Of a stretch of 21,721 nucleotides of DNA, positions 1 through 21,721 are shown piece after piece. Position numbers and translations under genes: made by a program. The stretch is from a virus. The DNA is taken from positions 1-21,721 of IMG/VR virus record IMGVR_UViG_3300030090_000779. One strand, written 5' to 3'. The notes beneath the pieces were generated by a model, which saw only the letters and a program-made list of their open reading frames with translations, had not been told where the DNA came from and searched no databases. The stretch's first letter is position 1. Each line of letters begins with the position of its first letter.

Positions 1-119
1 TCTATTGGAGAGAGCCCAGTACGCTGGATACCTTGATCCGTCTAGACGGTGGGATAGACCACAAAAATGGCCAAAAAAAATTTCAGATCTGAGAAAGCAA
101 ATCAATATCATTCTTAGAA
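1..119 (+). other. End of an upstream gene and leader of the capsid gene
   Basis: By T7 order the scaffolding gene should end here, but the piece is too short to decide its frame. One frame stays open to a TAG at 134-136, overlapping the capsid start by 17 bases and giving a basic tail that contains ISDLRKQINIILRNGTTK. A second frame stops at TGA 90-92, leaving a 27-base gap. The third stops at 34-36. No convincing Shine-Dalgarno site precedes the capsid ATG. A perfect 12-bp palindrome, CCGTCTAGACGG, lies at 38-49. I cannot identify a promoter. Confidence 0.4.
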
Positions 120-1301
120 ATGGCACAACAAAATAGTACATTGACCACTAGTATAACTAGTCCCGGTCAATCGAACTCTACTGGAGACAAGAGGGCGTTA
201 TACCTTAAATTGTTTTCCGGAGAAATGTTCAAAGGCTTCCAAAGGAACACGATAGCACGTGACCTTGTGATGAAGAGAACACTTACAAATGGTAAGTCAA
301 TGCAGTTCATCTTCACAGGAAGAACATCAGCCGAGTATCATACACCCGGCAACAGCATACTAGGTAACTCCGATGGAGCACCTCCAGTAGCTGAAAAGAC
401 AGTGACTGTCGACGATCTATTGATCTCCAGTGCATTTGTCTACGAGCTAGACGAGACTCTAGCACACTACGACCTACGTGGTGAGATCTCAAGAAAGATC
501 GGATACGCTCTTGCAGAGCAGTATGACAGAAAGATCTTCAGAGCAATCACTAAGGCTGCAAGACAGGCTAGTCCTATCACTAAGACTAACTTCAAAGAGC
601 CCGGTGGAACACAGATTCGTGTAACAGGAACCGCAACTAACGGTGCTGCTGCATACGAGCCTGCTGCTCTAATCAATGCTTTCTACGATGCTGCCGCAGC
701 TCTTGACGAGAAAGGAGTATCTGGCGAAGGTAGAGTAGCTGTACTTAACCCAAGACAGTACTACGAACTTATCCAAGGCGTAGAAACAAACGGTTTAATC
801 AACCGTAACGAGAGAGGAGATGCGTTACAGTCAGGTAACGGAATCATTGAAATAGCTGGTATCACCATCTACAAGTCAATGAACATCCCATTCTTCGGCA
901 GATTCGGTACTAAGTTTGGTACAGCATCTGGCACAAACCCCGGTGTTACAGACCCCGGTGCAACTGGCGACTTCGTAGAAGTTGTTATGCAAGATGAGAC
1001 TGCTGGCTCTTCAACAACAAAGACTATTAACAACTATGGTAATGGTACTTCTGCGTTTGAGAACAGCTGTGGACTTATCTTCCAAAAAGAAGCTGCTGCT
1101 TGTGTTGAAGCAATCGGCCCACAAGTTCAGACAACATCTGGAGACATCTCAGTGGTATACCAAGGTGATGTAATTCTAGGTCGTCTAGCTATGGGTGCAG
1201 ATGCACTTAACCCTGCTGCTGCTGTTGAACTCGTAGCTGGTGTGGCAACAAGCCGCAACGCTGCTGGCGAAGCAACAACTACAGGAAACGCTGCTTTCTA
1301 A
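120..1301 (+). CDS. Major capsid protein (T7 gp10-like)
   Basis: This 393-aa protein should form the icosahedral shell (HK97 fold). The N-terminus (MAQQNSTLTTSITSPGQSNS) and the stretch KLFSGEMFKGFQRNTIARDL near residues 30-50 look like T7-type cyanopodovirus capsid proteins. Further support is the central block around residues 115-155 (YELDETLAHYDLRGEISRKI followed by an AEQYDRKIFRAI helix) and the later motif AVLNPRQYYELIQG. It is somewhat longer than T7 gp10A (345 aa), with a Gly/Thr/Ala-rich C-terminal part. Codons look optimised: Ile is often ATC, Asn AAC and Lys AAG, and local GC reaches about 55% (601-660, hand count), well above the later genes. This fits very high expression. It is followed at once by an intrinsic terminator. 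The family assignment is secure; the cyanophage affinity is from memory. Confidence 0.96.
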   Translation: MAQQNSTLTTSITSPGQSNSTGDKRALYLKLFSGEMFKGFQRNTIARDLVMKRTLTNGKSMQFIFTGRTSAEYHTPGNSILGNSDGAPPVAEKTVTVDDLLISSAFVYELDETLAHYDLRGEISRKIGYALAEQYDRKIFRAITKAARQASPITKTNFKEPGGTQIRVTGTATNGAAAYEPAALINAFYDAAAALDEKGVSGEGRVAVLNPRQYYELIQGVETNGLINRNERGDALQSGNGIIEIAGITIYKSMNIPFFGRFGTKFGTASGTNPGVTDPGATGDFVEVVMQDETAGSSTTKTINNYGNGTSAFENSCGLIFQKEAAACVEAIGPQVQTTSGDISVVYQGDVILGRLAMGADALNPAAAVELVAGVATSRNAAGEATTTGNAAF

Positions 1302-1315
1302 CTTACACTTTATAC

Positions 1316-1339
1316 GGGAGCTTCGGCTCCCTTTTTTTT
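1316..1339 (+). terminator. Intrinsic terminator after the capsid gene (T-phi counterpart)
   Basis: A perfect 6-bp GC-rich stem, GGGAGC (1316-1321) with GCTCCC (1326-1331), is closed by a TTCG tetraloop and followed at once by eight T residues (1332-1339). It sits 14 bases after the capsid stop and 4 bases before the gp11 ATG. In T7 the main late terminator T-phi is likewise just after gene 10. It would attenuate, not abolish, transcription of the tail genes, so capsid transcript exceeds tail transcript. The sequence feature is plain; its in vivo strength is inferred. Confidence 0.88.
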
Positions 1340-1343
1340 ATTT

Positions 1344-1955
1344 ATGGCTTCCACAACTATTGACATCGATACCAAACTATCCGCAGTGAACAATATACTG
1401 GGGGCTATTGGGCAAGCACCGTTGACTGAGCTCGACTTTGAAAACCCAGAGGTATCATTTATATTTAATCTACTTCGAGATGCTAACGTAGACACACAAG
1501 CAGAGGGGTGGCACTTTAACACAGAGAAACATGTAGAGTATCCTATCAACTCAGATGGTAAGATACCAATACCCAACGATGTTTTATCGTTAGATTTACA
1601 CGATAACTACACTCGTAGAACTAAGGATCTGGTACGTCGTAATGGATTCTTGTATGATAAAATAGAGCATACAGATATTTTTACTGACAACCTTGTTCTA
1701 GATGTTGTCAAGCTTTACGAGTTTGAAGATCTACCTATTGTTTTCCGACGCTACATTGTCTATAGAGCTTCTCGTGTTGCTGCTACACAGCTTGTAGCAA
1801 ACCCTCAACTTGTTAAATTACTTGCAGTACAGGAGCAACAGGCTAGAGCTGCACTACAGGAGCACGAATGTAATCAAGGGGATCATAGTATGTTCGGCTT
1901 TGAAGATAACTCTGTACATCAAACATATCAACCTTGGAGAAACCTTAGAAGATAA
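1344..1955 (+). CDS. Tail tubular protein A (T7 gp11-like)
   Basis: This 203-aa protein is the adaptor ring that joins portal and nozzle; T7 gp11 has 196 aa. The N-terminus (KLSAVNNILGAIGQAPLTEL) and the following EVSFIFNLLRDANVDTQAEGWHFNTEKHV block are typical, as are IPIPNDVLSLD, an FRRYIVYRASRVAATQLV helix near residues 135-155, and the end NSVHQTYQPWRNLRR. The ATG lies only 4 bases after the U-tract of the terminator, so there is no room for a normal ribosome site. Transcripts that read through would carry the hairpin directly upstream of the start. Its stop overlaps the gp12 start as TAATG. Confidence 0.93.
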   Translation: MASTTIDIDTKLSAVNNILGAIGQAPLTELDFENPEVSFIFNLLRDANVDTQAEGWHFNTEKHVEYPINSDGKIPIPNDVLSLDLHDNYTRRTKDLVRRNGFLYDKIEHTDIFTDNLVLDVVKLYEFEDLPIVFRRYIVYRASRVAATQLVANPQLVKLLAVQEQQARAALQEHECNQGDHSMFGFEDNSVHQTYQPWRNLRR

Positions 1956-4801
1956 TGGCAGGCATAACACAAACAGTACCCTCATTCGCATTAGGTATAT
2001 CAGAACAGCCAGACCATCTCAAGTTTCCCGGTCAGGTTACCAATATTATAAATGCTGTACCTGATGTTACAAAGGGTTTATTCAAAAGGCCGGGTGCAAA
2101 ACGTATAGGTGCTGATGCGTTATCTAGTGTACAGACTGGTGGATCATGGTTTCATTATCATCGTGATGAGACAGAAGGATCTTATATCGGACAGGTAGCT
2201 GCTGACGGTCAAGTCCGAGTTTGGCGTTGTAGTGACGGTGTACTGATGACTACAGTTTATGGCACAGGCGGTCAGACAGCTATACAAAACTATCTAGCTA
2301 CTAGCACACCAGAGAACCTACAATTTCTAACTATTAATGATACTACGTTTGTAAACAGTAGAGATACGACTAACGCAAATACTCTTATTGGAATGACGGG
2401 TACAACTGATGCCAGACCTGACGACCACTTTGGTTTCATTGAACTATTACGTACAGAAAATGGTAGGCAGTATGGAGTTAACATAAATAACGGCACAGGT
2501 GTCACAACCGTTACCCGTGCTACTAAGATAAAAATTACAGACCATAATTTTGATGAAGGTGATGGCTCAGGGCACTGCCCCGGTATAGGTACAGAAGTGT
2601 ATGCTGTAACCGCTAAGTCAAGTTATAGTGCCTCTGAAAATATAACTCATGTAAAAAATAGTTCTGGTACTACACTTACATCAGGTAAAACCAACTTAAC
2701 ATTTCGTGTGACAGCACTTGGTCAACAAGGAGTAAGTCCTAATTATAGTGCTTCTTCTGATGGTCCAGATGGGCAAAACTACAGATGTAGCTATAATATA
2801 GAGGCTGTGCTGCTACATGGTGGTGAAGGATGGGCTCTGAATGATGTAGTTCGAGTTGTACCAGAGCATGCTGATGCAGCTGATAGTTCTGACGGACAGG
2901 CTTACGTAGATGTAACCGTAACTGAAATAGAAACAGCACAGGTTAATGCTAAATATAACAGTGCTGATACAGGACTTATCCGTCCAGCTCCTACACCTTT
3001 TGATGCAGATACAGCTGTAACTGCTGACACGATTCTTGGTGGTATTAAATCTGCCTTACCTAGTGGTGTAAATGGTACTATTATTGGTACAGGTATGTAT
3101 CTAAGTAGTGCCTCTGCGTTTAATGTAGAGGTTGTTGAAGAAGACTTAATGCGTTGTTTTCAAGGAACTGTAAATGATGTGACTCGTTTACCTAATCAAT
3201 GTAAGCATGGTTATATAGCAAAAGTAAGTAACTCTCAGAGAGCTGACGAGGATGATTACTTTCTTAAATTTGAGGGACAGAATGATAAAGATGGTGCAGG
3301 CTCTTGGGTTGAATGTGCAAAACCGGGTATATCAAAGACCTTAACAAACATGCCTTTGGTTATACAGCGTACAGCTACAACTGAGTTTACTGTTAAGCAG
3401 TTTACTTATGAAGATAGACAAGTCGGTGATACCTTAACTAACGCTGATCCATCTTTTGTAGGTAGTCGCATAAACAAAGTATTGTTTTTTAGAAATAGAT
3501 TAGCAATGCTATCTGGAGAAAATGTCATATTATGTAGACCGGGTACGGTAGGTAAACCTGATTTTTTTATAGAATCAGCACTGACTGTAGCGGCTAGTGA
3601 TCCTATTGATATTGCTTGTTCCTCTACATTCCCTTCAGAACTATTTGATGGCATTGAAACCACTACAGGTCTACTCGTGTTCAGCACAAACCAGCAGTTT
3701 CTACTGTCATCTGACGATACAGTTTTAAACCCTGATACAGCTAAGTTAAGAAGTGTATCTACATTTAATTATAACAAAGCAATAGCTCCTATATCACTTG
3801 GCACTACAGTTGCTTATGTCGATAACTCTGGTAAGTTCAGCCGCTTTAATGAAATGGCAAACATACGTAGAGAAGGTGAACCAAATATAGTTGAAGTTAG
3901 TAAGATTGTACCCAGCTTACTGCCTAAAGATATAGACCTTTTGACTAACTCTAGAGAAAACTCTATTGTCTTACTTGGTAAAACTAACAGCGATATTGTA
4001 ACTGGTTATAAATACTTTCAAGTTGCTGAGAAACGGTCTCAAGCTGCGTGGTTTAAATGGAAACTTAATAACCCATTGATATATCATTTTATTGTAAACG
4101 ATCAGTATTTCTTTTTAGATAGCGATTACTATTTACAAAGCATCAATCTGATACGTCAAGAAACAGATCCTACTACTACACAAAACAATGTCGAATACTT
4201 ACTACATTTGGATAATAACGTTGATCTTAGCGGTGGCAGCTTTAACGATTCTACAAACACCACAACCTTCAGTGGTCTGGGGTGGCTAAACACTGTTACT
4301 ACACCTAACTATAATGTAGCTGTTGTAAGTCCTACTGATGGGCGATACGAATTACCTACAGTTGACACAACGGCAAACACTCTGACTCTTAACGGAGACT
4401 GGTCTTCTGGTACATATAAGGTAGGGTACGTCTACGACTACGAAGTCGAGCTACCAACTCTTTACCCAACTCGTACGGAGGGTACAAACTCAAGAGCAGA
4501 TATTAACTCGTCACTTGTAATACATAGAGTTAAGTTTCATTTTGGAACACTTGGTTCTTACAAAGCGGTACTTAAACGTGTTGGTAAGAATAACTACGAG
4601 GTAGATTACGAGTCTACACCAGCTGATGCTTATATAGCTACAAGTGCTCCTTACATAACTGAATTTATTAAGACTGTTCCTGTCTATGAACGGAACACAA
4701 ACTTAGATATTATACTTAGATCAACTCATCCCGCTCCAGCTACACTTCGTGGCTTGTCATGGGAAGGAGATTATTCACCTAGATTTTATAAGCGTGTCTA
4801 A
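1955..4801 (+). CDS. Tail tubular protein B / nozzle (T7 gp12-like)
   Basis: This 948-aa protein is the tail nozzle that carries the fibres and gates DNA exit. The start (TVPSFALGISEQPDHLKFPG, then NIINAVPDVTKGLFKRPGAK) is the classic gp12 opening. The middle contains INKVLFFRNRLAMLSGENV and later TTGLLVFSTNQQFLLSS. The end TLRGLSWEGDYSPRFYKRV is also typical. T7 gp12 has 794 aa; the surplus of about 150 residues may correspond to a Gly/Ser/Asn-rich stretch near residues 190-370, which includes a GEGWALNDVVRVVPEHAD segment. Translation is likely coupled to gp11 by the TAATG overlap. Family certain, placement of the extra domain inferred. Confidence 0.94.
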   Translation: MAGITQTVPSFALGISEQPDHLKFPGQVTNIINAVPDVTKGLFKRPGAKRIGADALSSVQTGGSWFHYHRDETEGSYIGQVAADGQVRVWRCSDGVLMTTVYGTGGQTAIQNYLATSTPENLQFLTINDTTFVNSRDTTNANTLIGMTGTTDARPDDHFGFIELLRTENGRQYGVNINNGTGVTTVTRATKIKITDHNFDEGDGSGHCPGIGTEVYAVTAKSSYSASENITHVKNSSGTTLTSGKTNLTFRVTALGQQGVSPNYSASSDGPDGQNYRCSYNIEAVLLHGGEGWALNDVVRVVPEHADAADSSDGQAYVDVTVTEIETAQVNAKYNSADTGLIRPAPTPFDADTAVTADTILGGIKSALPSGVNGTIIGTGMYLSSASAFNVEVVEEDLMRCFQGTVNDVTRLPNQCKHGYIAKVSNSQRADEDDYFLKFEGQNDKDGAGSWVECAKPGISKTLTNMPLVIQRTATTEFTVKQFTYEDRQVGDTLTNADPSFVGSRINKVLFFRNRLAMLSGENVILCRPGTVGKPDFFIESALTVAASDPIDIACSSTFPSELFDGIETTTGLLVFSTNQQFLLSSDDTVLNPDTAKLRSVSTFNYNKAIAPISLGTTVAYVDNSGKFSRFNEMANIRREGEPNIVEVSKIVPSLLPKDIDLLTNSRENSIVLLGKTNSDIVTGYKYFQVAEKRSQAAWFKWKLNNPLIYHFIVNDQYFFLDSDYYLQSINLIRQETDPTTTQNNVEYLLHLDNNVDLSGGSFNDSTNTTTFSGLGWLNTVTTPNYNVAVVSPTDGRYELPTVDTTANTLTLNGDWSSGTYKVGYVYDYEVELPTLYPTRTEGTNSRADINSSLVIHRVKFHFGTLGSYKAVLKRVGKNNYEVDYESTPADAYIATSAPYITEFIKTVPVYERNTNLDIILRSTHPAPATLRGLSWEGDYSPRFYKRV

Positions 4802-5799: not shown

Positions 5800-8286
5800 A
5801 TGACATCATCATTCGGAACTATCGTAGGTAGAGAACGGGACAAGATACCCGGCTACGGTGTAGATAACTATGAAGCTACTGAGCCTGATCTAACTAATGC
5901 AGTTAACGATCAGATTACTAGAAACCAAGAAGACACTCGTCAATTCTATAACGAGATGGCTCAAATACAGAAAACTATTGCAGAGACTCCTTTACAGAAT
6001 TTACAGTCTCTTGCACAGTTTTCTCAGTCGGCTGGTCAAGCTATAAGAGTGTATAAGCAACGACAGGAAGCACAAGAAAAAATACAAGAAGCAATGGACT
6101 TCTTAGATAAAAACTCTAGTGCTACACTTCGTGATGCTGAAGGTAAATTAAATTTAGAAGATGCTAAGTTTAACAGTCAACTACTTAATGAGAATACAGA
6201 AGATTCAATCAACTTTCTAAGAACTAGAAATGCTGCACTACCAGAAGATGCTAGCCTTAAGCAAATTCTAAAGGAACTTAACGATAATTATTTTGGTGCA
6301 CGACAGCAGTTTATCAATGAAAACGGTGGTAAAGATATTACTGATTCCCAAGAGTTTATAGAGTTACATAATGCTGCTGATGAGCTTATGATTACAGCTA
6401 TGCTTGATAGAGCACAACAAGCTGGTATCGATACCAATAGTCGAGAGTTTAGAAAAGCATTTTATAATACAATATATCCTGATATAAAACAGAGAAGAGA
6501 TAATAATATACAAAGCTGGAAGTCTCAAGCAAATAGAAATTACGAAGCTAACAGAGATGAAAAGCTAAGAAACATCATTGTTGATACACTACAACCTTAC
6601 CAACAAGGGGATGCTGTTGATATTGATGTAGAAACTTTAGTTCAAACAATTATGGCAACTCGTCCTAACTTTACTAAAAGACAAGCTGTAAACTATTTAT
6701 TTGAAGAAGTTGCTACAGAAGTTGGATCAGACGCACCTAGATTAAAACTACATCATCTTGAATATCTTTTTGATGATGCGTTATACATACCTAGCTATGC
6801 ACCTAACACAAGAGTTACATACGCAGAAGGTAAGTTTAAAGATAAAGATGCTAACAGCTCACTTATACTTAAAACACGAGATAAGTTAGCTGAAATAGAT
6901 ATACGACGTGAAAGAGCTGCAAAGTCTATTGCACAGACTGAGCTTGATGAACTAGGTTTAGAGTTTCCTAATGGTATACCTGATCCTATCTTAGAAAAGA
7001 AACTGCTTCAGTTAGAAGGTAAGTACCCTAATGTAGATGTCAGAAGTCTACAAGTAAGTAGTCGTGGTATTACAAACGGTGGTGAGTATGGTAGAGCTGG
7101 TCAAGGAGATCTTTTACAAACTTTTAATACTGATCTAAAAAACTCTTACGAAGCACAAATAGGTAAGGAGTTGTTCTCTCCATTCAATGCAAGAGAAGTA
7201 GAAAGAGCTCAAGGTGCACTTGCTTTTGAAGTTAAGAAACAGACAGATCTAGGAGTTGAACTAGATGAAGCTGTACAAAACGTATACCCTGATATAAAAG
7301 CTGGGTTGCTTGCTGGTCAATACACAGGAACTGAGATTGAAAAACGTAGAGGAGAAAGAGCAACACCAAACGATATAATAGCAGATGCTAAATTTTTACA
7401 ATCTGATATAGGTAAAGTACAGTATCAAGGAGAACCAATATCCTTGTATGAAAAGCAGGCTCTGACTGACTACAAGAGACATTTAATTAGTCCAGAGATA
7501 TATCCATTTCCAGAATACTTTGGCGGTGTAGTTAGAGGTACTAAGCTTAATGCTAGACAGTATGCTTATAATAGACTAGAAGCAACAGGTGGATTGAACG
7601 AACAAGGTCTTATCAAACAAATGCCTTTTGTAAATAGAAATGGCGTTTTAGTTGATCCGCAGTTTGATCTTACATTAGAAGAGCTTAACACTTTAGAAGT
7701 CAAGCCTCATCTTACAAAGACTTATAATGCTTTACAAGATCCAGAAAAAGCACAAAAGATTCTAAAAGGTTTTCAAACAGGCAACCAACCGGGAACTTTT
7801 GACTCAGCTACAGGTCCAAGAAAAACTAATGCTGACGATCTTACTGTTGGTCAAGTGTTAACATTTGCCAAAAGAGGTGCTAGTAACTTTGGAATCTACG
7901 GATTCAGTGCACAAGAGTTAAAAGATGCAGTTAAGTTTCTACCTCCTAGTTATCTTGACACACAATTTAATGAAGAAACACAGAGTTTTCTAGTATTAGA
8001 ACTTGTAAGACAACGAGCTAACAGAACAAATAGCATTAGAGGTGCTATCATACAAGCCAAAAAAGGTGGTGAAGAGACCATTTTTACAGGTGACGAGACT
8101 GAAGGTAGATGGGATAGATTAGTCCCCTTAACTTTAGCAGAACAAAACGCTGTTTTAGACTTGTTTCCTAATTTACGACAGATACCTATGAACCAGTTTC
8201 ATAATCTTACAGCTGGTGTAGTCTTAGGTATCGAAAGTGAGATAGCAAACTATGAGAGAAACAGAAAAAAACAAAGAAAAAAGTAG
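5800..8286 (+). CDS. Internal core protein (T7 gp15-like)
   Basis: This 828-aa protein is the middle member of the ejected core; T7 gp15 has 747 aa. The start follows the gp14 stop directly (TAAATG) and is one of the few with a fair ribosome site, AAAGGA at 5791-5796. The protein is highly charged and mostly helical, with Gln/Glu-rich stretches such as YKQRQEAQEKIQEAMDFLDK near residues 85-105, no membrane segments, and a basic tail (NRKKQRKK). It has no recognisable enzyme motif. In T7, gp15 and gp16 form the periplasmic DNA channel. Identification rests on position between gp14 and gp16, size and composition. Confidence 0.87.
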   Translation: MTSSFGTIVGRERDKIPGYGVDNYEATEPDLTNAVNDQITRNQEDTRQFYNEMAQIQKTIAETPLQNLQSLAQFSQSAGQAIRVYKQRQEAQEKIQEAMDFLDKNSSATLRDAEGKLNLEDAKFNSQLLNENTEDSINFLRTRNAALPEDASLKQILKELNDNYFGARQQFINENGGKDITDSQEFIELHNAADELMITAMLDRAQQAGIDTNSREFRKAFYNTIYPDIKQRRDNNIQSWKSQANRNYEANRDEKLRNIIVDTLQPYQQGDAVDIDVETLVQTIMATRPNFTKRQAVNYLFEEVATEVGSDAPRLKLHHLEYLFDDALYIPSYAPNTRVTYAEGKFKDKDANSSLILKTRDKLAEIDIRRERAAKSIAQTELDELGLEFPNGIPDPILEKKLLQLEGKYPNVDVRSLQVSSRGITNGGEYGRAGQGDLLQTFNTDLKNSYEAQIGKELFSPFNAREVERAQGALAFEVKKQTDLGVELDEAVQNVYPDIKAGLLAGQYTGTEIEKRRGERATPNDIIADAKFLQSDIGKVQYQGEPISLYEKQALTDYKRHLISPEIYPFPEYFGGVVRGTKLNARQYAYNRLEATGGLNEQGLIKQMPFVNRNGVLVDPQFDLTLEELNTLEVKPHLTKTYNALQDPEKAQKILKGFQTGNQPGTFDSATGPRKTNADDLTVGQVLTFAKRGASNFGIYGFSAQELKDAVKFLPPSYLDTQFNEETQSFLVLELVRQRANRTNSIRGAIIQAKKGGEETIFTGDETEGRWDRLVPLTLAEQNAVLDLFPNLRQIPMNQFHNLTAGVVLGIESEIANYERNRKKQRKK

Positions 8287-8289
8287 AAG

Positions 8290-11200
8290 ATGACAGACTC
8301 AAACTACTCAAAACCTGAGATTACTGTTGACGAAGGCTATGCTGATTACCTAGCTGGCCTTGCAGAACAGGCTACAGACGAGTATGAGCGGAGGAGAGAT
8401 GCACAAGAAGCTGCACAGACACAGGTAGAAACAGATGAGAAGGTCGCTCAAGAAACACAAGACGATCCTCGAAATGCAGAAAACTGGGGTGCTAAGGCAC
8501 TCATAAAAGAGGGACAATCTATATTGTCTGGTGGTATTCAAGATACAGCATCCTCAATCGCTACTTTTCCAGAACGTACAATAGATGCGATATCTGGAGA
8601 AATGCAAGAACAACGACAAGAGACTGGTACATACAGACCAGACTGGAGTCCATTCGGTGGGTATGATAATCCAATCGAAACAAGAACATGGTGGGGTAAG
8701 CAATTACGTGGTTTAGTACATTTTGGTACACTTGCACTTGGTACAGTTGCAGCAGCTAAGGCAGTCGCAGCTACTGGAGTTGTCACGATACCAGCTGGTT
8801 TACTTACACTTGCAAAAGGTAATTTAGTTAGAGGTGCTGCCGTAGGTGCTGTGTCTGACCTTATATCTAAAGAGTCAGACGAGCAAAACGCTTTAGGTGC
8901 GTTACGTGACAGGTATGGTTGGATAGATACACCAATATCTACAAAAGATACTGACCATCCAGTTGTAATGAAGATGAAAAACATTGTCGAAGGTATGGGC
9001 ATAGGTCTGGTCTTTGACGGTTTCGCATACACACTAAAGAAAGGTAGTGACAAAGTTATTGAACAGATAACAAAACGTAACAAGAGTTTAGAAAATCAAA
9101 CAGTACAGGCTGGTATTGCACAGCTTCGTAAAGGTGAGGAAGAGTTTAGAGCAGATAAAAATGCACCTATATCTCAACCACACCAAGGAGCACACGTATC
9201 AGAAGTAGATCCACAAACAGCCCGTGAGCAGTTGTCAAAAACACGTAAGCAATGGGGCTCAGAGGAGGGTTCTACTGGTAGTGTCACAACACCCATAGAA
9301 CGAGAAAGAATAGGCTTAGAAGGCGGCACAGACGAGGCTACGGTCGAACGTATCATGCAAGGCTTGATGAGCACAGAAAAGTTTGCAAAAGAACTAGATG
9401 CAGCAAAAGGTGATCGCAAAGCCTTAGTAGCAAAATTTAGAGAAGCTATTGAAGGACATCAACGTATTACTCAAGGCAGAAATGCTTTAGACATGTCACC
9501 ACAGGAGTATCTAAAAGATTTATTAGAAGCTAATCCTGACATAGTTGATGGTATAGAAGTGTGGACATCTAAAAACGTAGTAATTGCTGACCTTGTAATA
9601 GGGTCACTTCTTAAACAGGTACGTGACTTAGGTGTTGCTGGTAGAGAGATAGCAGATATTGTAGACTTACAAGACATAGACGGACCAGCTAAACAGCTCG
9701 TCGATACTATGTTGACTGCATTATACGAAACAAAGAAAGCTAGATTTGTAAAGTCAGACTCATTCAGAGAACTAGGTCTTGGTAAGAAAAGTAAGAAGAC
9801 TGTAGAAGAGGCTACACAAGCTTCTATGGAAGACGCTAAAGAGTCTATCATGTCTATACTTAAGATTGCTAAAGATGACAAAGATGACAATATGCTAAAC
9901 GCTTTGTATGAAGCATTTTCTATGATGGAAGATGTTAATACATTAGATGATTTTGACAATTGGGCAAGAAAAACTATACTTGGTGGGCCGCTAAAAGAAG
10001 GTGGTGCAAATCGTACAGGTTCTATGATTCGTGAGCTAGAAGGTGTAATGACACATAGTATACTATCTGGACCTAAGACACCTATTCGAGCAATTATGGG
10101 TACATCTACTGCAACATTCTTGAGGCCACTGGCTCAGAGTTTAGGTGCAATTTTAAGATTACCTTTTGATGGTAACGTAGCTACTGTCAGATCAAGTCTT
10201 GCAGCTGTCAATGGCATGATGGAAGCTATACCTGAGTCATTTACACTATTTAGAAGTAAACTAAACTCATACTGGAAAGGCGATATAAGATCAATCAAAA
10301 CACGTTTTACAGAGTTTACAGCAGCCGATGATAACTGGGAGATACTACGTCGTTGGGCAGAAGATAGCGGTAGAGCTACACCCGGAGAAACAGCAGCATT
10401 TCGTGTAGCAAACGTAGCACGTCAAATGAACAATAGCAACTTTTTGACGTACTCTACTAAGATTATGGCTGCAACTGACGATGCGTTTGGCTATATTATG
10501 GGTCGTGCAAAGATGCGTGAAAAGGCTATGCGTAGAGTTCTCGAGTTACAGGACAACGGATATAAGACACCTAAGATAACAAAAGATCTGATGCAAGCAT
10601 ACGAGGATGACTTCTATTCACAAATCTTCGATGCACAAGGTAATATTGTCGATGAAGCTACACAGTTTGCACGTAAAGAAGTTACACTTACACAAGAACT
10701 AACAGGCTTTGCAAAGGGCCTTAATGATGTGTTTAGTGCTACACCTTTAGCTAAACCATTCTTTTTGTTTGCTAGAACAGGTGTAAATGGACTTGCTCTT
10801 ACAGGTAAGTATACACCCGGTTTTAACTTCTTAGTCAAAGAGTTTAACGACATAGCATTTGCAAACCCTAACGACTTACGAAGTGTATCTAAATATGGTA
10901 TCTTTACAGCAGAAGAGCTAGCCAATGCACGTGCCTTACAGACAGGTCGATTGGCAATAGGTTCTGGTGTAGTTATGATGGCTGTTAACGCTTGGATGCG
11001 TGGTGATCTTAACGGTAACGGACCAGTTGATAGACAGAAAAGACAGCTATGGCTTGACGGTAAGTGGGAACCTAGAACTATAAAGCTAGGTGCAGTTCGT
11101 GTTGGTTATGACCAGTTTGAACCATTTAACCTTATCATGTCTACAATCGCTGACGTAGGTGACGCAAGTCAACTTATGGGTGAAGAGTGGACAGAAAACG

Positions 11201-11994
11201 AATTAGGTAAGATAGCTCTTGTTGTAGCACAAGCTGTAACAAGTAAATCATACTTAGCTGGTATACAGTCGTTTGTTGACTTATTTGCTGGCCGCCCCGG
11301 TCAAACAGGTCGTATCATATCTGGACTTGCTAACAACGCAGTTCCATTAGCTGGTATACGTAACGATTTAGGTAGACTATTTACCCCTTACATGCGTGAG
11401 ATAAACTCAGGTGTATACCAGTCTATACGTAATAGAAACTTAATTTTTGAAAAACTTACTTCTAATCAACTACCTGTTAAGTACGATATGCTAAACGGTA
11501 AACCTCTAAAAGATTGGGATTTTCTAACTAGAGCATACAATGCTGTGAGTCCGATTAGTCTAAATTTAGACCAGACTCCCGGTAGAAACTTCTTGTTTGA
11601 TAGTGGTTATGACTTACGTACATCTACTTACTTTGCACCAGATAGCACAAACTTAACAGATCACCCTTATATTAGATCAGAGTTTCAACGAGCATTAGGT
11701 TCACTTAACATAGAATTAGAACTTGATAAACTTGCTAAAGATAAGAGAATGTTAGCATCTATGGAACTTATGTATGCTGATATACGGGCAGGCAAGCGTG
11801 GTCAATTTAATGCTAGAGATTATTACCACAATAGAATCATAGATCAAGTATTTAAACGTGCTAAGAAAAGAGCATGGGCATCAATTAAAGATGATCCTAG
11901 AATTGCAGAGGTAATTGAAAAGCAACGCTTAGAGAAAGTAGCACAAATTGATAAGAGAAGTGCATCTCAAAACATTCTTAACATATATAAATAA
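8290..11994 (+). CDS. Internal core / DNA ejection protein (T7 gp16-like) without transglycosylase domain
   Basis: This 1234-aa protein is the largest ejection protein; T7 gp16 has 1318 aa. It begins 3 bases after gp15. T7 gp16 starts with a lytic transglycosylase domain; here the first 100 residues are Glu/Gln-rich and helical and show no such domain. A long hydrophobic Gly/Ala segment lies near residues 142-185 ([19 protein letters not shown]). Further hydrophobic stretches occur near 805-830 and 885-900. The C-terminal third contains the block [20 protein letters not shown] followed by [15 protein letters not shown], which I recognise from podovirus gp16 proteins. The role would be to insert into the inner membrane and ratchet DNA in. 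Its stop overlaps the fibre start as TAATG. Confidence 0.92.
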
Positions 11995-14570
11995 TGGCAA
12001 CAACAAAGACAACTGAAGAAAAATTCAACGGAACAGGATCTCAAACTGTTTATCCGTTTACAATTGAATACTTAGCTACGTCTGATTTACAAGTATTTGT
12101 AAGCAACGTATTACAAACAGAAACCACCCATTATTCTATATCTGGATCAAGCCTTACTTTTGTAACAGCTCCACCAAGCGGAACAGGGAATGTAAGAATT
12201 AGTCGATCAACAGGAATAGATAAAGCTCGAGCAGTTTACGCTGCTGGATCATCCGTTAGAGCTGTAGATTTAAATGCTAACCAAGATCAAGCTTTATTTG
12301 CATTACAAGAAAGAGTTGCTAAAGTTGGTACACTTGTTAGTAGTGCAGCTCCGACTACCCCTGCAGCTGGAGACAAGTGGTATGACACCGTATCTGGTAG
12401 ATTATTTGTCTACTATGAAGATGTAGACTCATCGCAATGGGTAGAGGCGAGCCCAGCTCACGAAACAACTAATGCTCCACAGATAACAAGTATATCTGAT
12501 GCACAGGTAGTAAGTAACGCTGCTATAAACTCAACTAAATTATCATTTACTCAGACAGGCACAGGAGCTGTAGCCAGAACTCTAGACGACAGACTTAAAG
12601 AATTTGTCTCTGTAAAAGATTTTGGTGCAGTAGGAGATGGTATAGCTGATGACACTTCGGCTATACAGGCAGCAATTAATACAAATAAAAATATAACATT
12701 TCCAATAGGTAGATATAAAGTATCTGATACAATAACAATTCCTCAAGCACATGTAGGTCAAATATTACACGCAGTGACTGGTAACGCAAATTATCCGTCA
12801 GTAGCATTTAAACCTAATGCTGAGATTATTGGAGATTTATCTAGCATAACTAGCTCAGGTAGTCTTACTGATCTTGCATCAGCAAAACCAATGTTTTTGG
12901 TACAAGCTGCGGGTGTAAAATTCCAAGGGTTGTATTTAAATGGTACTAGTAATACAAAAAATTCAATCGGTATAAAGGTTGAGCTTACTGCTGATACTTT
13001 TAGAGATGATGCAGACGGTCAGTATAATGATTGTATGCTTGGAAATTGGCAATGGGCTATTTATCATAAAGGTCGTGGAATAGGAGTTAACGATTGTAAT
13101 ATATTTACAAGTTACACAGGTATTCTTTTAGATTGGCCATCAAATGTAAATCCTAGTCAAATCGGTATTGCTGTAGATGACGACTACGCTAACAGAGGCG
13201 TACAGATAAGAGATAATCAATTTCATGGTGTATTTAGAGCCATTCAACATATAGGTTCGTTTCCTTTAATAGGTGCTTCTATTGTTGGTAATCATTTAGA
13301 TATTGGTCAAGCTTTATTTGAAGTTGGAGTTGATAATGCACATACTATAACACAAGCTAATATAACAGAAGCAAATCCCGGTGTATTTACAAAAACTAAT
13401 CATGGACTACCTAACGGCACACAGTTAACATATAACTCTAGAGGTGGTACTAATCTTGCTACTTCAGCTGGAACTGCTGCAGATGAAACAGTTTTTTATG
13501 TTGTAAATGCACTTACTGATACTTTTCAAATTGCAGCAACTTCTGGAGGCACTCCGTTACAAGTAACTAATGACGGCAATGACAGTCAATGTTTTAAGGA
13601 ACCTGTTGTTGCTGCTGAAACTAGAGATACACTTATATCAAGTAATGTAGTAATGTTTTCTGCTAGTCGTGCTGGTGTTAAGTATAATAGAGGTACAAAA
13701 AGTGTAAGAGATCATATTATTAATAATCACTTTAGTGGTGGTATAAATACTGAAGGTACAGCTGTAGGGCAGACATCAACAGATAGAACACCTTTATATC
13801 ACATTTACTTTAGAAGCTGCCATACTATACAAGATTTAAGTATTAACAATAATTTTTTAGCTTATTCTGATAGACACTCTATTGCATTTATTAACGAGGA
13901 TTTTGAGACTGCCGCAGTAGTTACAGCGGTAAGTATTAACAATAATACTTGCAACGCTTGGGGTTTTACCTCAACAAGTAGTGCAAACAGAGGGGCTATC
14001 GCTGTCGAAATTCCTACAAGTTATTTGTCTATTAGAGGTAATACATTTAAAAATACATACTCTACAACTGAGTGTATTAGGTTTAATAGTAGCACTCAAA
14101 CAAACTTACATATTAGTGACAATACCTTAACTGCTGGTGTTTTATATAATGGAGCTAATGTAACTGTTAGTGGAAATAGACTGGACTCAACTTATTCTGT
14201 AGGTACTTTTACACCTACTTTAGCAAACGTATCTGCTCCAACTTATAGTGCTCAGACTGGTTCTTATATAAAAATAGGACAGTTAGTTAACGTTTGGATA
14301 ACTTTAACATATTCCGGGTTAAGTACTAGTGATACTTCAGCATATAGCATTAGTGGGTTACCTTTTGCTCATGACATAGATCAAGCTCTTTTAGGATTTG
14401 ACGCAAATACTAGTGATGGCTTGGGTAACAAAGGCAATGTTACTGGTGCTGCTTTTACAGGTTCTACAACTATTTCGCTAATGGATGCTACTGGACCTTT
14501 TACATACGCTGATAGTAATGATGCAGCGGGAACACTAAAAATAACATTTGCTTACAAATCTACCTATTAA
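11994..14570 (+). CDS. Tail fibre 1: gp17-type anchor plus beta-helix tailspike
   Basis: This 858-aa protein should be the main receptor-binding fibre. Residues 1-75 form the T7 gp17 N-terminal attachment domain (EEKFNGTGSQTVYPFTIEYL, then SSLTFVTAPPSGTGNVRISR). Residues 75-150 hold a coil and a small domain (AAGDKWYDTVSGRLFVYYED). Residues 183-216 are a hinge shared with the two later fibres, leading into a Pectate_lyase_3-type right-handed beta-helix (VKDFGAVGDGIADDTSAIQA). A Gly/Thr-rich module is inserted near 452-533. The C-terminal 123 residues (736-858) recur as the separate protein at 14815-15246. No catalytic residues can be assigned by eye, so depolymerase activity is open. T7 gp17 has 553 aa. 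Confidence 0.92.
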   Translation: MATTKTTEEKFNGTGSQTVYPFTIEYLATSDLQVFVSNVLQTETTHYSISGSSLTFVTAPPSGTGNVRISRSTGIDKARAVYAAGSSVRAVDLNANQDQALFALQERVAKVGTLVSSAAPTTPAAGDKWYDTVSGRLFVYYEDVDSSQWVEASPAHETTNAPQITSISDAQVVSNAAINSTKLSFTQTGTGAVARTLDDRLKEFVSVKDFGAVGDGIADDTSAIQAAINTNKNITFPIGRYKVSDTITIPQAHVGQILHAVTGNANYPSVAFKPNAEIIGDLSSITSSGSLTDLASAKPMFLVQAAGVKFQGLYLNGTSNTKNSIGIKVELTADTFRDDADGQYNDCMLGNWQWAIYHKGRGIGVNDCNIFTSYTGILLDWPSNVNPSQIGIAVDDDYANRGVQIRDNQFHGVFRAIQHIGSFPLIGASIVGNHLDIGQALFEVGVDNAHTITQANITEANPGVFTKTNHGLPNGTQLTYNSRGGTNLATSAGTAADETVFYVVNALTDTFQIAATSGGTPLQVTNDGNDSQCFKEPVVAAETRDTLISSNVVMFSASRAGVKYNRGTKSVRDHIINNHFSGGINTEGTAVGQTSTDRTPLYHIYFRSCHTIQDLSINNNFLAYSDRHSIAFINEDFETAAVVTAVSINNNTCNAWGFTSTSSANRGAIAVEIPTSYLSIRGNTFKNTYSTTECIRFNSSTQTNLHISDNTLTAGVLYNGANVTVSGNRLDSTYSVGTFTPTLANVSAPTYSAQTGSYIKIGQLVNVWITLTYSGLSTSDTSAYSISGLPFAHDIDQALLGFDANTSDGLGNKGNVTGAAFTGSTTISLMDATGPFTYADSNDAAGTLKITFAYKSTY
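12540..12641 (+). repeat. Fibre hinge repeat, copy 1
   Basis: These 34 codons (residues 183-216 of fibre 1) read LSFTQTGTGAVARTLDDRLK, then EFVSVKDFGAVGDG. The same segment recurs at 15740-15841 and 17234-17335 with identical length. It is the junction between the N-terminal parts and the beta-helix, and is a common seam in phage tailspikes. Confidence 0.85.
13350..13592 (+). repeat. Inserted beta module in fibre 1 (HGLxNG type), copy 1
   Basis: Residues about 452-533 interrupt the beta-helix with a module marked by FTKTNHGLPNGTQLTYNSRG, a central VFYVVNALTDTFQIA and a terminal Gly/Asn turn. A related module sits in fibre 3 near residues 530-618, with AHGFNNGDKVRY and FFIRDKTTDTFKLALTKGG. 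Boundaries are approximate. Confidence 0.65.
14199..14567 (+). repeat. Fibre tip domain, copy 1 (end of fibre 1)
   Basis: This 123-codon segment is the C-terminal domain of fibre 1. It aligns without gaps with residues 21-143 of the protein at 14815-15246, with about 65% identical residues by hand count. GSYIKIGQLV and FTYADS are identical in both. Confidence 0.92.
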
Positions 14571-14586
14571 AAATTAATTTAAAACA

Positions 14587-14811: not shown

Positions 14812-14814
14812 ATT

Positions 14815-15246: not shown

Positions 15247-15253
15247 ATAAATC

Positions 15254-17200
15254 ATGGCTTTAAATTTTCCCGCAGCCCCGGCGAGTGGTGCTACACATAA
15301 CGCTACAAATGGGCTGCAATATACATATGATGGTGTCAAATGGACATCACAAGGATCTTACGCCACTGGTTTAAAAGATGTAGTAAAACTTGATAGTATT
15401 GCTAGTCAGTTCAACGGATCTCTTACTTCTTTTAACTTAACAATTAATTCAGTAGGAGTAAATCCTTTAAGTGCTGAATCTTTAACAATTAGTTTAGGTG
15501 GTGTAATACAAGAACCGCAGACAGCTTACACAGTTAACTCTGCGACAGGAGTAATTACTTTTACTTCTGCTCCAGCAGCTGGCACTACATTTTACGGTGT
15601 ATTACAATCCCGTTTACCTGTAAACACTGCTGCAATAGGAACTTTAGGTGATGGTGCAGTTTCAACTGAAGGTAAATTAGCAAATGGTGTAGTCACCAAC
15701 GCCAAAGTAAATTCAGCAGCAGCAATAGATGCAACCAAGCTTTCTTTTACACAAACTGGTACAGGAGCTGTAGCTAGGACTGTAGATAGTAAATTAGAAG
15801 ACACAATTTCACCACTTGATTTTGGTGCTGTAGGTGACGGCACTACAGATGATAAAAATGCTTTACAAGCTGCTATTAACGCAGCAGAAGCTATTGTAGG
15901 TCCTAGAATAGGTGCAACTGATATTGAAGCAGCGTATGCAGTAGTTGATTTAGGTGGTAGAAAATATTCTATTTCTAATAGTCTTACTATCAGTGAAGCT
16001 ATTGTTTTACAAAATGGAGCTATTGTAGCTTCATCTACGTTTCCAATAAATAATTACTGTATTAATATAGCTGATACAGCAGAAAGAGCAGTAATACAGC
16101 GTGTAGATATTGATGGAGGATTATACACAACAACAAGAAGAGGAAATGGCATTAAGGTAAATGCACCTAGAGTACATATTTCAAGAGTTTATGTAAACCA
16201 TTTTCCACAATTTGGAATAAGAGTTTTTACTTCTGCTAGTGTTACAACTCAAGAAGTAAGAATTGAAAATTGTTTAGTAAGAGAATGGCAATTTACTGAA
16301 GCTGGTACAGCTACTTTTAGCCTTAGAACAGCAAAAGGAATATCAATAGAAGTTGCTGATAATTATGTAATTAATACCACTGTTGCTCAATGTTTAACAC
16401 CTTTATATTTAAGTGGAGCATTAAATATTATTGATGGATGTCATTTTTATAATGGAGGAGCGAGTGGTGTTGAACCAGTTGTAGTTGAACTTGATAATAC
16501 TGATAACACTGTGTTTTCTGGATGTTATTTTGACAACGGTACAATTGATATAAAAACCAGTTTTAATCATAATATCACTGGCTGTCATTTTCAAAAAACT
16601 GCCAATTCTGCTATAACTAAATTTATTCAAACCTTTACATCAGCTACTGGTGAAACATTACAAGGGTTAATAGTAACCGGATGTAGTTTTAATGGTAGTT
16701 TTGTACCTATTGCTTTTCAAGTAACTGGTAGTGGTAGTTATGCAAGTGACTTATTTAAGGCAATGACGTGGTTAGGTAATTACAGAACAGATGGTGGTGA
16801 TGTTTGGGTTCAATCAAAATTTGGAATTAATGCGTATCTTGAAGATGGAAATATGTATTTAACACAGAATAACAATACTTTTAATTTTAGAGCAATACAA
16901 GGTATAACTTTAGATGCAGATTACGATAACAATTCTGGTGCTGGTGAATCCTTTGTTGAAATAAAAACTGATGGAACCTCAAAATTTAAATTTGATAATA
17001 ACGGTGGATTAGTTCCACAAATAACTACAACTGCAATAGGAACAACTGGTGCTCCAATAAATGCTATGTTTACAAACCATATTAGATTAGTTCCTACTTC
17101 ACAACCCTCTAATCTTGAAGGAAGACTTTATTATGATGCCACCGCAAACAAATTAAAATTTTATAACGGAACCGCTTGGGAAACAATTACATCATCATAA
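15254..17200 (+). CDS. Tail fibre 2: beta-helix tailspike with its own N-terminal module
   Basis: This 648-aa protein begins with a small Trp motif region (FPAAPASGATHNATNGLQYT, then GVKWTSQGSY). It continues with a beta module near residues 55-125 (SLTISLGGVIQEPQTAYTVN, then GVITFTSAPAAGTTFYG) that resembles the anchor-domain style of fibre 1. A helical or coil link and the shared hinge (163-196) follow, then the Pectate_lyase_3-type beta-helix from about residue 189 (DFGAVGDGTTDDKNALQAAI). Repeated short rungs such as NCLVREWQFT and VFSGCYFDNGTIDI support a beta-helix. The end (EGRLYYDATANKLKFYNGTA, then WETITSS) is a common small phage-fibre terminus and differs from fibre 1. The gene is AT-rich compared with the capsid and core genes. 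It is probably a second host-recognition spike. Confidence 0.87.
   Translation: MALNFPAAPASGATHNATNGLQYTYDGVKWTSQGSYATGLKDVVKLDSIASQFNGSLTSFNLTINSVGVNPLSAESLTISLGGVIQEPQTAYTVNSATGVITFTSAPAAGTTFYGVLQSRLPVNTAAIGTLGDGAVSTEGKLANGVVTNAKVNSAAAIDATKLSFTQTGTGAVARTVDSKLEDTISPLDFGAVGDGTTDDKNALQAAINAAEAIVGPRIGATDIEAAYAVVDLGGRKYSISNSLTISEAIVLQNGAIVASSTFPINNYCINIADTAERAVIQRVDIDGGLYTTTRRGNGIKVNAPRVHISRVYVNHFPQFGIRVFTSASVTTQEVRIENCLVREWQFTEAGTATFSLRTAKGISIEVADNYVINTTVAQCLTPLYLSGALNIIDGCHFYNGGASGVEPVVVELDNTDNTVFSGCYFDNGTIDIKTSFNHNITGCHFQKTANSAITKFIQTFTSATGETLQGLIVTGCSFNGSFVPIAFQVTGSGSYASDLFKAMTWLGNYRTDGGDVWVQSKFGINAYLEDGNMYLTQNNNTFNFRAIQGITLDADYDNNSGAGESFVEIKTDGTSKFKFDNNGGLVPQITTTAIGTTGAPINAMFTNHIRLVPTSQPSNLEGRLYYDATANKLKFYNGTAWETITSS
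15740..15841 (+). repeat. Fibre hinge repeat, copy 2
   Basis: Residues 163-196 of fibre 2 read LSFTQTGTGAVARTVDSKLE, then DTISPLDFGAVGDG. The first 14 residues are identical to copy 1, and about 24 of 34 positions match overall. Confidence 0.85.
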
Positions 17201-17203
17201 ATA

Positions 17204-19882: not shown

Positions 19883-19884
19883 TA

Positions 19885-20292
19885 ATGACTGGCGAAGCAA
19901 TCCATCTACCCACCCTAGCTTTACCACCCGCCCAAGAGTATCCAACTCCAGCATTAGATCTACCTACAGCAGACATTCCATCCTACAAACCTTTAGTTGT
20001 ACCTCCTAGTGATTTACGTAAACCTAAAGAAACTAAATCTAAAACAAAAGAAACAACTGAACAACCACCTATACCTAAGTTTGAAGTACCTTACTTTGGG
20101 TTTAAAGTAGATCTTCCTACAGGTGAAGTTGTAATGGCTGCAACCTATGCAGCAGTAACAGCAGTTGCAGTAACAACTTTTGCACAGCCTTTTTTTAATA
20201 CAATTAAGAAAAAACTACAAAAGACAATACAAGGAAAAGTAGATAAATGGAAGCAAAACCGACAGAAAAGAAAAACATCCTCACAAAAATAA
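19885..20292 (+). CDS. Pro-rich single-pass membrane protein, function unknown
   Basis: This 135-aa protein has a Pro-rich N-terminal half (LPTLALPPAQEYPTPALDLP), a Lys/Thr-rich linker, and one hydrophobic segment near residues 81-102 (VVMAATYAAVTAVAVTTFAQ). A strongly basic amphipathic tail follows (NTIKKKLQKTIQGKVDKWKQ). I recall similar proteins beside cyanophage tail-fibre genes but know no established role. It could be a minor virion protein or take part in lysis, as it directly precedes a holin candidate. Its end overlaps the next gene by 46 bases in another frame. Confidence 0.78.
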   Translation: MTGEAIHLPTLALPPAQEYPTPALDLPTADIPSYKPLVVPPSDLRKPKETKSKTKETTEQPPIPKFEVPYFGFKVDLPTGEVVMAATYAAVTAVAVTTFAQPFFNTIKKKLQKTIQGKVDKWKQNRQKRKTSSQK

Positions 20293-20534
20293 AAGAGAAT
20301 GTAGATGATCATGACGAACAGATGCAAATACTAGGTGCCATGGTGCGGCTTGGTGTAGTCATTTGGTCTGGTTTTATTATTACTCTTAATTATGTTGAGC
20401 TACCTATGGTCCGAAAACCTCTAGGAGCATCATCGGACATCACGTTCGTAGCTTCAATCTTTACTGGAGCACTTGCCACTTTTGGGCTGTCTACAGGTAA
20501 TAAAAAATCTAAAGAAGATAAACCAAAACAATGA
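20247..20534 (+). CDS. Putative holin with two membrane segments
   Basis: This 95-aa protein has a charged N-terminus, two hydrophobic segments near residues 30-50 (AMVRLGVVIWSGFIITLNYV) and 64-82 (DITFVASIFTGALATFGLST), and a short basic tail (NKKSKEDKPKQ). This is the layout of class II-like holins, and in T7 the holin gp17.5 also follows the fibre gene. The ATG at 20247 gives a plausible soluble N-terminus and puts the start inside the preceding gene. No endolysin is next to it. Holin is a structural guess; a virion membrane protein is the main alternative. Confidence 0.62.
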   Translation: MEAKPTEKKNILTKIKENVDDHDEQMQILGAMVRLGVVIWSGFIITLNYVELPMVRKPLGASSDITFVASIFTGALATFGLSTGNKKSKEDKPKQ

Positions 20535-20887
20535 ATAAATGGATAATACTCTTAGCCCTGTTGTCACCCGCAGTAGCGAGAGCAAACACAGTTACTCCCC
20601 AGTTTACACAGGGCAGTATGAACTCAACGACAACAACCACCTCAGTGATTCAAGAAGTCAAAACGACTCAGGTATTTGGAGCAGAAGTAAACAGCTGGTC
20701 AGGTTCAAATGTAACTCCTTCTGGAGACATTGCAGACGCAGCTACAACCTTTTCTGTAACAGATGCAGCAGCAGACTGGACACTAGAAACAACATCAAGA
20801 GCAGCAGGCTTAGTAGAACAAATAGATGCAACAACAGATTGGACTATAAATACTACTGTTACCTCGCTGTCTGTCTTTTCTCAGTAA
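20531..20887 (+). CDS. Secreted Thr/Ser-rich protein 1, function unknown
   Basis: This 118-aa protein starts in an ATGA overlap with the holin stop (20531-20534). It has a clear signal peptide, MNKWIILLALLSPAVARA, with likely cleavage after ARA. The mature part is rich in Thr, Ser and Ala, free of Cys, and ends SLSVFSQ. I recall similar small secreted proteins, followed by a relative of the next gene, in several cyanophages, but not a function. It would act in the periplasm or at the outer membrane; a lysis or superinfection role is possible. There is no lipobox, so it is not a typical Rz1-type spanin. Confidence 0.72.
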   Translation: MNKWIILLALLSPAVARANTVTPQFTQGSMNSTTTTTSVIQEVKTTQVFGAEVNSWSGSNVTPSGDIADAATTFSVTDAAADWTLETTSRAAGLVEQIDATTDWTINTTVTSLSVFSQ

Positions 20888-21408
20888 CACCTATTTTAGC
20901 AAGCGAACCAGAAGTTAACAATACATCTAACCCCGTAGCAGCGGCTACAGGTAACGTCACAAATCAGGCTGTACAGTTCCAAAATAATGGTGCAGCCTCT
21001 CGGCAGCAATATGCTCCGGGAGTAGCTTGTAATGGCAGCACGATGACGTTTTCGCCATTTTACATGGGCAACCATACCAACCCATACTCTGAAAAAGAAG
21101 ATATGGAAGGGTTACACCCATCTAGTTATCAACTAAATGAGAACTGGGGGTTTCAAGTTAACTTTATGGTTCCACTTGATAAGAGCGGACATAAACTTTG
21201 CAAAGAAATAGCAAAGAGACAAGAAGAAAAACTCAGGCTCGACTATGAGCTTGTTCGTGCATTGAAATGTGCAGAACTACAGTCAAAGGGTTTTACCCTG
21301 AGACCGGGAAGCCGTGTTGAACACATGTGTCACGACATCGTTCCCATTCAATCCTTATTACCACCCAGTCCTAAACCCGAAAAAAAGGGCTGGCCTTTTA
21401 AAAAATGA
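20839..21408 (+). CDS. Secreted Cys-containing protein 2, function unknown; TTG start proposed
   Basis: The frame is open from 20539, but its upstream part is Arg/Ser/Asn/Cys-rich nonsense that shadows the previous gene. A TTG at 20839 gives 189 aa starting MDYKYYCYLAVCLFSVTPIL, a good signal peptide with cleavage near LAS. The mature part has the conserved-looking segments ATGNVTNQAVQFQNNGAASR and CNGSTMTFSPFYMGN. It also has a charged helix with Cys at both ends (KLCKEIAKRQEEKLRLDYEL, then VRALKCAEL) and a further Cys in EHMCHDI: four mature Cys, so disulfides are likely in the periplasm. The start lies 49 bases inside the previous gene. The start codon is an inference; the reading frame is firm. 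Confidence 0.72.
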   Translation: MDYKYYCYLAVCLFSVTPILASEPEVNNTSNPVAAATGNVTNQAVQFQNNGAASRQQYAPGVACNGSTMTFSPFYMGNHTNPYSEKEDMEGLHPSSYQLNENWGFQVNFMVPLDKSGHKLCKEIAKRQEEKLRLDYELVRALKCAELQSKGFTLRPGSRVEHMCHDIVPIQSLLPPSPKPEKKGWPFKK

Positions 21409-21539
21409 GCACACTATCAAATCAAATAGCAGCACAAGTTGAAGCTATTAAAAAACCAAAGAAAAAAACAAAATCAAAGCGTGACGAAACCGGACGTTTT
21501 GTAAAAGATGAAGCAGACCTAGACACACCATCATTATGA
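21405..21539 (+). CDS. Small basic protein, 44 aa, unknown
   Basis: The ORF overlaps the previous stop as ATGA (21405-21408) and the next start in the same way. The product, MSTLSNQIAAQVEAIKKPKK then KTKSKRDETGRFVKDEADLD, is Lys-rich with a GRFVKDE motif seen in assorted small phage proteins. No membrane segment. The two flanking ATGA junctions are the best evidence that it is translated. Confidence 0.6.
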   Translation: MSTLSNQIAAQVEAIKKPKKKTKSKRDETGRFVKDEADLDTPSL

Positions 21540-21694
21540 TCGCACTAATTAAACCAATACTGTTCAAGTTTTTGGGCAGCAAGTCAGTAAAAGAGCTTGT
21601 AGTCAAACTACTAGAAGCATACAGTAAGACTACTGACAACACAGTAGACGACAAGCTTACAGCTCTTGTCAAGAAAAACTTATTACCAGAATAA
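21536..21694 (+). CDS. Small protein with TDNxxDD motif, 52 aa, unknown
   Basis: It starts in an ATGA overlap with the preceding ORF. The product is an amphipathic helix-rich peptide (MIALIKPILFKFLGSKSVKE then LVVKLLEAYSKTTDNTVDDK) ending LTALVKKNLLPE. I recall small phage proteins with a TDN-x-x-DD motif near holin genes, often of unknown role. The N-terminal hydrophobic stretch is short for a membrane span. It may belong to the lysis group or to DNA packaging. Confidence 0.62.
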   Translation: MIALIKPILFKFLGSKSVKELVVKLLEAYSKTTDNTVDDKLTALVKKNLLPE

Positions 21695-21695
21695 T

Positions 21696-21721
21696 ATGGA
21701 GAATCCAAGGGTTATACCCAA
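21696..21721 (+). CDS. Start of the next gene (partial), possibly large terminase
   Basis: An ATG one base after the previous stop opens a frame reading MENPRVIP up to the window edge. Only eight residues are visible. In T7 order the large terminase subunit follows the fibre, holin and small packaging genes, so that is the positional guess; the sequence itself cannot confirm it. Confidence 0.4.

Follow-up and report, generated by a model that had tools for sequence, protein, structure and literature searches.

The DNA analysed here, IMG/VR virus record IMGVR_UViG_3300030090_000779, is by its genes a fragment of a T7-like cyanophage, and it contains no copy of the word CCWGG. The record is itself a fragment of 21,721 bases in total, and 'the window' in what follows is this whole stretch. 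CCWGG is an orthodox type II restriction site, and avoidance of that site, complete and clade-wide, probably accounts for its absence. A preliminary description of the window had proposed selection against an EcoRII/Dcm-like specificity; such selection (EcoRII/MvaI-like) is supported, in that CCWGG and not CCSGG has been lost, silently, in 103 relatives but not in sisters of similar composition.

One hundred dinucleotide shuffles of the window lead one to expect 18.2±4.3 CCWGG sites against the zero observed, and 4.5±2.1 CCSGG sites against 21; the preliminary description had counted none and about 20. It had also named a codon shuffle as a control that might yield CCWGG counts near zero. Permutation of synonymous codons in the window genes gave 20.2±2.5 (minimum 13 in 150 runs), and for CCSGG 4.7±1.9 where 19 are observed. 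Expected counts depend on the model (first-order Markov, maximal-order Markov, codon shuffle), and all models concur. Before Gly, all 17 Pro codons of the window genes are CCC or CCG, whereas elsewhere 200 of 227 are CCA or CCT, a pattern already noted from the letters alone. In-frame Pro-Gly accounts for 19 of the 21 CCSGG sites, including two in a 289-aa open reading frame (ORF) at the right end. The sites are as follows, and Pro-Gly positions reported earlier were correct within a few bases (162, 939, 2027, 5848, 7789, 10816, 13377, 21016).

162..166, + strand, CCCGG, Pro-Gly in gp10 (PGQ)
345..349, + strand, CCCGG, Pro-Gly in gp10
600..604, + strand, CCCGG, Pro-Gly in gp10
939..943, + strand, CCCGG, Pro-Gly in gp10
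954..958, + strand, CCCGG, Pro-Gly in gp10
2027..2031, + strand, CCCGG, Pro-Gly in gp12
2090..2094, + strand, CCGGG, Pro-Gly in gp12
2579..2583, + strand, CCCGG, Pro-Gly in gp12
3323..3327, + strand, CCGGG, Pro-Gly in gp12
3539..3543, + strand, CCGGG, Pro-Gly in gp12
5848..5852, + strand, CCCGG, Pro-Gly in gp15
7789..7793, + strand, CCGGG, Pro-Gly in gp15
10381..10385, + strand, CCCGG, Pro-Gly in gp16
10816..10820, + strand, CCCGG, Pro-Gly in gp16
11296..11300, + strand, CCCGG, Pro-Gly in gp16
11578..11582, + strand, CCCGG, Pro-Gly in gp16
13377..13381, + strand, CCCGG, Pro-Gly in gp17-like fibre
14314..14318, + strand, CCGGG, not Pro-Gly (frame 1, gp17-like)
15277..15281, + strand, CCCGG, not Pro-Gly (frame 2, fibre ORF)
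21016..21020, + strand, CCGGG, Pro-Gly in 289-aa ORF
21304..21308, + strand, CCGGG, Pro-Gly in 289-aa ORF

The depletion exceeds what composition and codon use predict and is specific to the word, CCSGG not being depleted. That a bias of composition, codons or amino acids produced it with no selection on the word is scarcely credible: the dinucleotide and synonymous-codon controls do not reproduce zero, sister phages at GC content similar to the window carry CCWGG at 0.9-2 times expectation, and Pro codon use departs between the two states only before Gly. Host composition was likewise rejected as the cause; Prochlorococcus DNA has 1347 CCWGG sites where 1131 are expected (1.19x), and the phage bias is therefore not that of its host.

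Two further palindromes, beyond those the preliminary description reported, are missing from the window: GCGC (0 against 23.6 expected) and CGCG (0 against 12.8). CCWGG is therefore one among several lost palindromes, and their joint depletion might suggest a general avoidance of palindromes or hairpins. We regard this as very improbable, since CCGG, like CCSGG, is in excess in the window, where AGCT, TGCA, GATC and GTAC, as well as GGWCC, stand near expectation. Loss of several unrelated palindromes together is what many restriction-modification (R-M) specificities would produce.

To read changes at homologous sites, the window was codon-aligned with CCWGG-bearing sister contigs. Ninety-one comparisons placed a sister CCWGG in frame 0 over identical amino acids. 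The commonest changes were CCAGG to CCCGG (49), CCTGG to CCGGG (21) and CCTGG to CCCGG (16). Since sister phages have CCWGG at the same codons, they differ from the window by a silent switch of one base; the site is lost by replacement of its central base and neither by deamination nor by protein change. Mutational decay, in which methylated CCWGG deaminates to CTWGG or CCWAG under a Dcm-like enzyme with or without Vsr, is contradicted by this spectrum, which includes only five cases of CCAGG to CCAAG. Vsr genes do adjoin methyltransferases in some Prochlorococcus genomes, but we consider the process extremely improbable as the cause.

The avoidance extends well beyond the window. Two IMG/VR scans fetched 160 relatives, from which near-copies were removed; the IMG/VR contigs among them are fragments. 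The 103 non-redundant avoiders (contigs and isolates, window included; 1.20 Mb) hold 2 CCWGG sites against 1045 expected, whereas the 42 other non-redundant relatives (0.88 Mb) hold 1344 against 1119. The ratio of observed to expected is bimodal, with no contig between 0.3 and 0.7. Counts in related phages, which the preliminary description had put forward as a check, thus bear the avoidance out over relatives longer than the window: contigs of 40 kb, 30.6 kb and 31.8 kb have 0/40, 0/36 and 0/37 (observed/expected), and one of 24.6 kb has a single site. Among isolates the counts are 0/41 in P-GSP1, 1/40 in P-SSP3, 1/38 in P-SSP2 and 35/59 in P-SSP7, the lone sites of P-SSP3 and P-SSP2 lying, it seems, at one shared position within a DUF7227 gene. 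About 11 changes of state are implied by a quick tree of the capsid protein with 107 rows, at least 8 of them forced by well-supported branches, this being the tree of a single gene in which recombination is possible. The lost palindromes differ as clade-specific sets, GGCC or GGWCC being added in some clades. P-SSP7 (L003) has another avoided set: GGSCC 0/25, CGWCG 0/15, GGCC 6/66 and CCSGG 1/14.

The host of the window is probably a high-light Prochlorococcus. A 40-kb relative of the same avoidance state carries psbA, and its D1 protein shares 91-92% identity with D1 of P-SSP7, P-SSP2/3 and P-GSP1 and 80-85% with that of the Synechococcus phages tested; our assignment follows this proximity to Prochlorococcus-phage D1. 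Prochlorococcus is described as having 0 to 1 R-M systems per genome, many genomes having none (PMC8262939), and for that reason the loss of CCWGG in its phages is surprising, as the preliminary description had remarked. A search of the available literature library on CCWGG in cyanophages or on Prochlorococcus methylation found nothing relevant.

Enzymes were sought in a set of 266 genomes that group with a Prochlorococcus single-cell genome; because single-cell genomes are incomplete, the frequencies are lower bounds. A cytosine-C5 methyltransferase occurs in 69 of the 266, MvaI/BcnI family nucleases in three, an EcoRII-C domain in two and the TdeIII family in four (two above cut-off). Vsr, MmeI, HNH and GIY-YIG proteins adjoin other Prochlorococcus methyltransferases. 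At one locus (L311) the C5 methyltransferase adjoins a nuclease with a PF15515 match over the full length (E 5.7e-44), whose closest solved relative is R.MvaI (E 3.8e-8) and which retains the PD...ExK motif (PDYKGIEIK aligned with PDFHDIEIK of R.MvaI). By its sequence this pair appears to be an intact MvaI-like R-M system, a candidate of the CCWGG family with a recognition word that is predicted only. The closest plasmid relatives of its methyltransferase (57% and 53%) adjoin annotated MvaI/BcnI nucleases. The two EcoRII-C domains (G013 and G523) are weak, partial matches (E about 1e-5 to 1e-6), and a comparison of these proteins with the PDB found no structural relative; that of G523 lies ~240 bp from an L311-type methyltransferase. 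The search of host genomes for CCWGG enzymes, also suggested in the preliminary description, has thus succeeded as far as methyltransferases and one intact MvaI-like nuclease are concerned, but CCWGG recognition by these candidates is a prediction.

C5 methyltransferases with varied nucleases lie near a SIMPL-like (DUF541) gene at L270, L271, L273, L278, L311 and L315, several of them between that gene and one resembling aroQ (both named from sequence motifs); the L271 locus ends in a tyrosine-recombinase-like ORF. The site is likely a defence hotspot. The nuclease might reside on mobile elements or satellites, or in phages that compete within the host population, and not on host chromosomes. 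The recurrent site of varying content, the nearby recombinase at L271 and the pairing of L311-type methyltransferases, 92-97% identical, with different nucleases in other genomes all speak for such carriers. We consider this reading, with its putatively mobile elements, unlikely; it differs from avoidance of host restriction in the carrier alone. Elsewhere, BcnI-like proteins that have no catalytic residues adjoin a helicase-Mrr protein (L312 5123-9102 with L308 1471-2187, and L313), and the L312 (L308) locus additionally has an HATPase protein. These are possibly composite systems in which the BcnI-like protein serves DNA recognition only.

Under restriction-site avoidance, the phage lineage would long have infected high-light Prochlorococcus or close kin, part of whose population would carry nucleases cutting unmodified CCWGG, with further nucleases for GCGC and CGCG and, for some of the clades, GGCC or GGWCC. 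Site-bearing phage would be cut on entry and the sites thereby eliminated, in most cases through one silent substitution at the third base of a Pro codon that precedes Gly (CCA/CCT to CCC/CCG), and such a purge would leave CCSGG in excess. The agent would presumably be a CCWGG-specific host nuclease. Several points weigh against this. Only 5 of the 266 genomes yielded a nuclease of the CCWGG-type families, and of the three MvaI/BcnI members two (L308, L313) are missing the catalytic residues in alignment. No HinP1I-family (GCGC) nuclease was found in the 266 genomes, although a control likewise gave none and the search is uninformative. The enzymes named as candidate agents are of predicted specificity. 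MED4 is a laboratory host of P-GSP1, with no sites, and presumably also of P-SSP7, with 35 (the host field of its record is blank). Phages of both states thus grow on MED4, so that pressure from this laboratory host was rejected and the selecting hosts would be other wild strains or past hosts.

An alternative that calls for no R-M system in MED4-type hosts is a CCWGG nuclease encoded by the phage, which would destroy the DNA of host or competitors, the phage genome being spared by having no sites. The site is wholly absent, as self-cleavage would require, and the state flips between close relatives. Gene content argues otherwise. Every gene common to P-GSP1 and P-SSP3 either recurs in P-SSP7 or is tiny, and an HNH gene near the terminase is present in both P-SSP7 and P-GSP1. 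Ten proteins (mostly unknowns) of the 40-kb avoider contig include as nucleases only a T7-type endonuclease I and an HNH protein. A scan of avoider versus non-avoider gene content and of the genes in the HNH-to-terminase cassette found nothing discriminating, the window's own lineage being covered outside its early region. Several unrelated palindromes were moreover lost at once, and we judge such a nuclease quite unlikely. A P-SSP7 gene product (gp12) named 'DNA methyltransferase' was considered as a protection of non-avoiders and rejected, having no Pfam match.

Pro-Gly is always encoded by CCNGG, so a phage that retains Pro-Gly cannot shun both CCWGG and CCGG. The opposite state exists: CCGG is missing from Tangaroavirus isolates 9515-10a, P-SSP10 and R27W and from contigs L028 and L031, and these sequences, where counted, use only CCA/CCT before Gly. 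This state was at first a candidate for CCSGG avoidance, which was rejected, those genomes being without CCGG, which CCSGG contains. CCGG is avoided by 0 of 81 CCWGG-avoiders and 6 of 34 others (Fisher p 5e-4; the contigs are phylogenetically non-independent). The Prochlorococcus myoviruses P-HM1 (L353) and P-SSM2 (L354), examined over their first 50 kb, have no CCGG (32 and 22 expected) and no GCGC, and CCWGG is present. GGSCC is nearly absent from both stretches, and that of P-SSM2 has CCWGG at >2x and GGWCC at >4x expectation. Pelagibacter phage HTVC019P (L352, NC_020483, 1-42000) has neither CCWGG nor CCGG, and its 19 annotated genes contain 0 Pro-Gly pairs against 19 expected, so restriction avoidance may have altered the proteome of this SAR11 phage. 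HTVC019P is also without CGCG, GCGC, GGCC, GGNCC and GATC (0/77 expected), and GANTC and CTNAG are strongly depleted.

A broader reading, which we hold tentatively and at a little under even confidence, is that wild cyanophages form two coding guilds that switch all their Pro-Gly codons under incompatible hosts, cutting CCWGG or cutting CCGG/CCSGG. The codons would then constitute a host-range barrier readable from sequence, and double pressure would delete Pro-Gly, as apparently in HTVC019P. If true, this would mean that restriction is strong, widespread and so far unmeasured in bacteria of the oligotrophic ocean that are thought to be without it.

The window capsid protein is 60-77% identical to those of T7-like cyanophages of Synechococcus and Prochlorococcus, and the order of capsid, tail, internal core proteins and fibres is as in those T7-like phages. 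The genes used here are:

120..1301, + strand, gp10 major capsid protein, basis for the tree of avoidance states
1344..1955, + strand, gp11-like tail protein, gene order in relatives
1955..4801, + strand, gp12-like tail protein, gene order in relatives
5800..8286, + strand, gp15-like internal virion protein, gene order
8290..11994, + strand, gp16-like internal core protein, query that gave relatives L085-L164
11994..14570, + strand, gp17-like tail fibre, gene order

The 289-aa ORF (20539-21408) overlaps a 118-aa ORF in another frame (20531-20887). The lengths of these late ORFs (20531-21408) are conserved in L328, and they are perhaps lysis genes. An integrase gene occurs in some relatives (P-SSP7, P-SSP3), the corresponding region lying outside the window.

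Prochlorococcus is very abundant, and the near-perfect, clade-wide loss of a site in its likely phages points indirectly to restriction having acted strongly in its wild populations. Specificities to seek are predicted by the avoided words CCWGG, GCGC, CGCG, GGCC, GGWCC and CCGG, and the alternative between CCWGG and CCGG offers a marker, readable from sequence, of the hosts through which a phage can pass.

Restriction-site avoidance has long been known in T7. By our count T7 has 2 CCWGG sites against 69 expected, in agreement with the preliminary description's statement that it has very few EcoRII sites, and 6 GATC sites against 149, the same kind of loss in a T7-like phage. The present case differs in extending across a clade (103 sequences, 1.20 Mb), in the opposite state of sister lineages and in hosts described as nearly R-M-free. 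P-GSP1 moreover keeps most of its Pro-Gly pairs (22 against 30.6 expected), whereas T7 has lost most (7 against 29.4). Among known enzymes, the MvaI/BcnI family (R.MvaI, CCWGG; R.BcnI, CCSGG) shares with L311 its nuclease domain and neighbouring C5 methyltransferase, and EcoRII-type systems share the EcoRII-C domain with G013 and G523. A systematic study (Rusinov et al. 2018, PMC6286503) reports that words are eliminated completely or almost so in roughly one tenth of the genomes of viruses. The avoidance trick is thus already known; what is unusual is how complete it is throughout a diverse wild clade, its clean two-state behaviour, the either/or coding trade-off and a host group regarded as nearly restriction-free.

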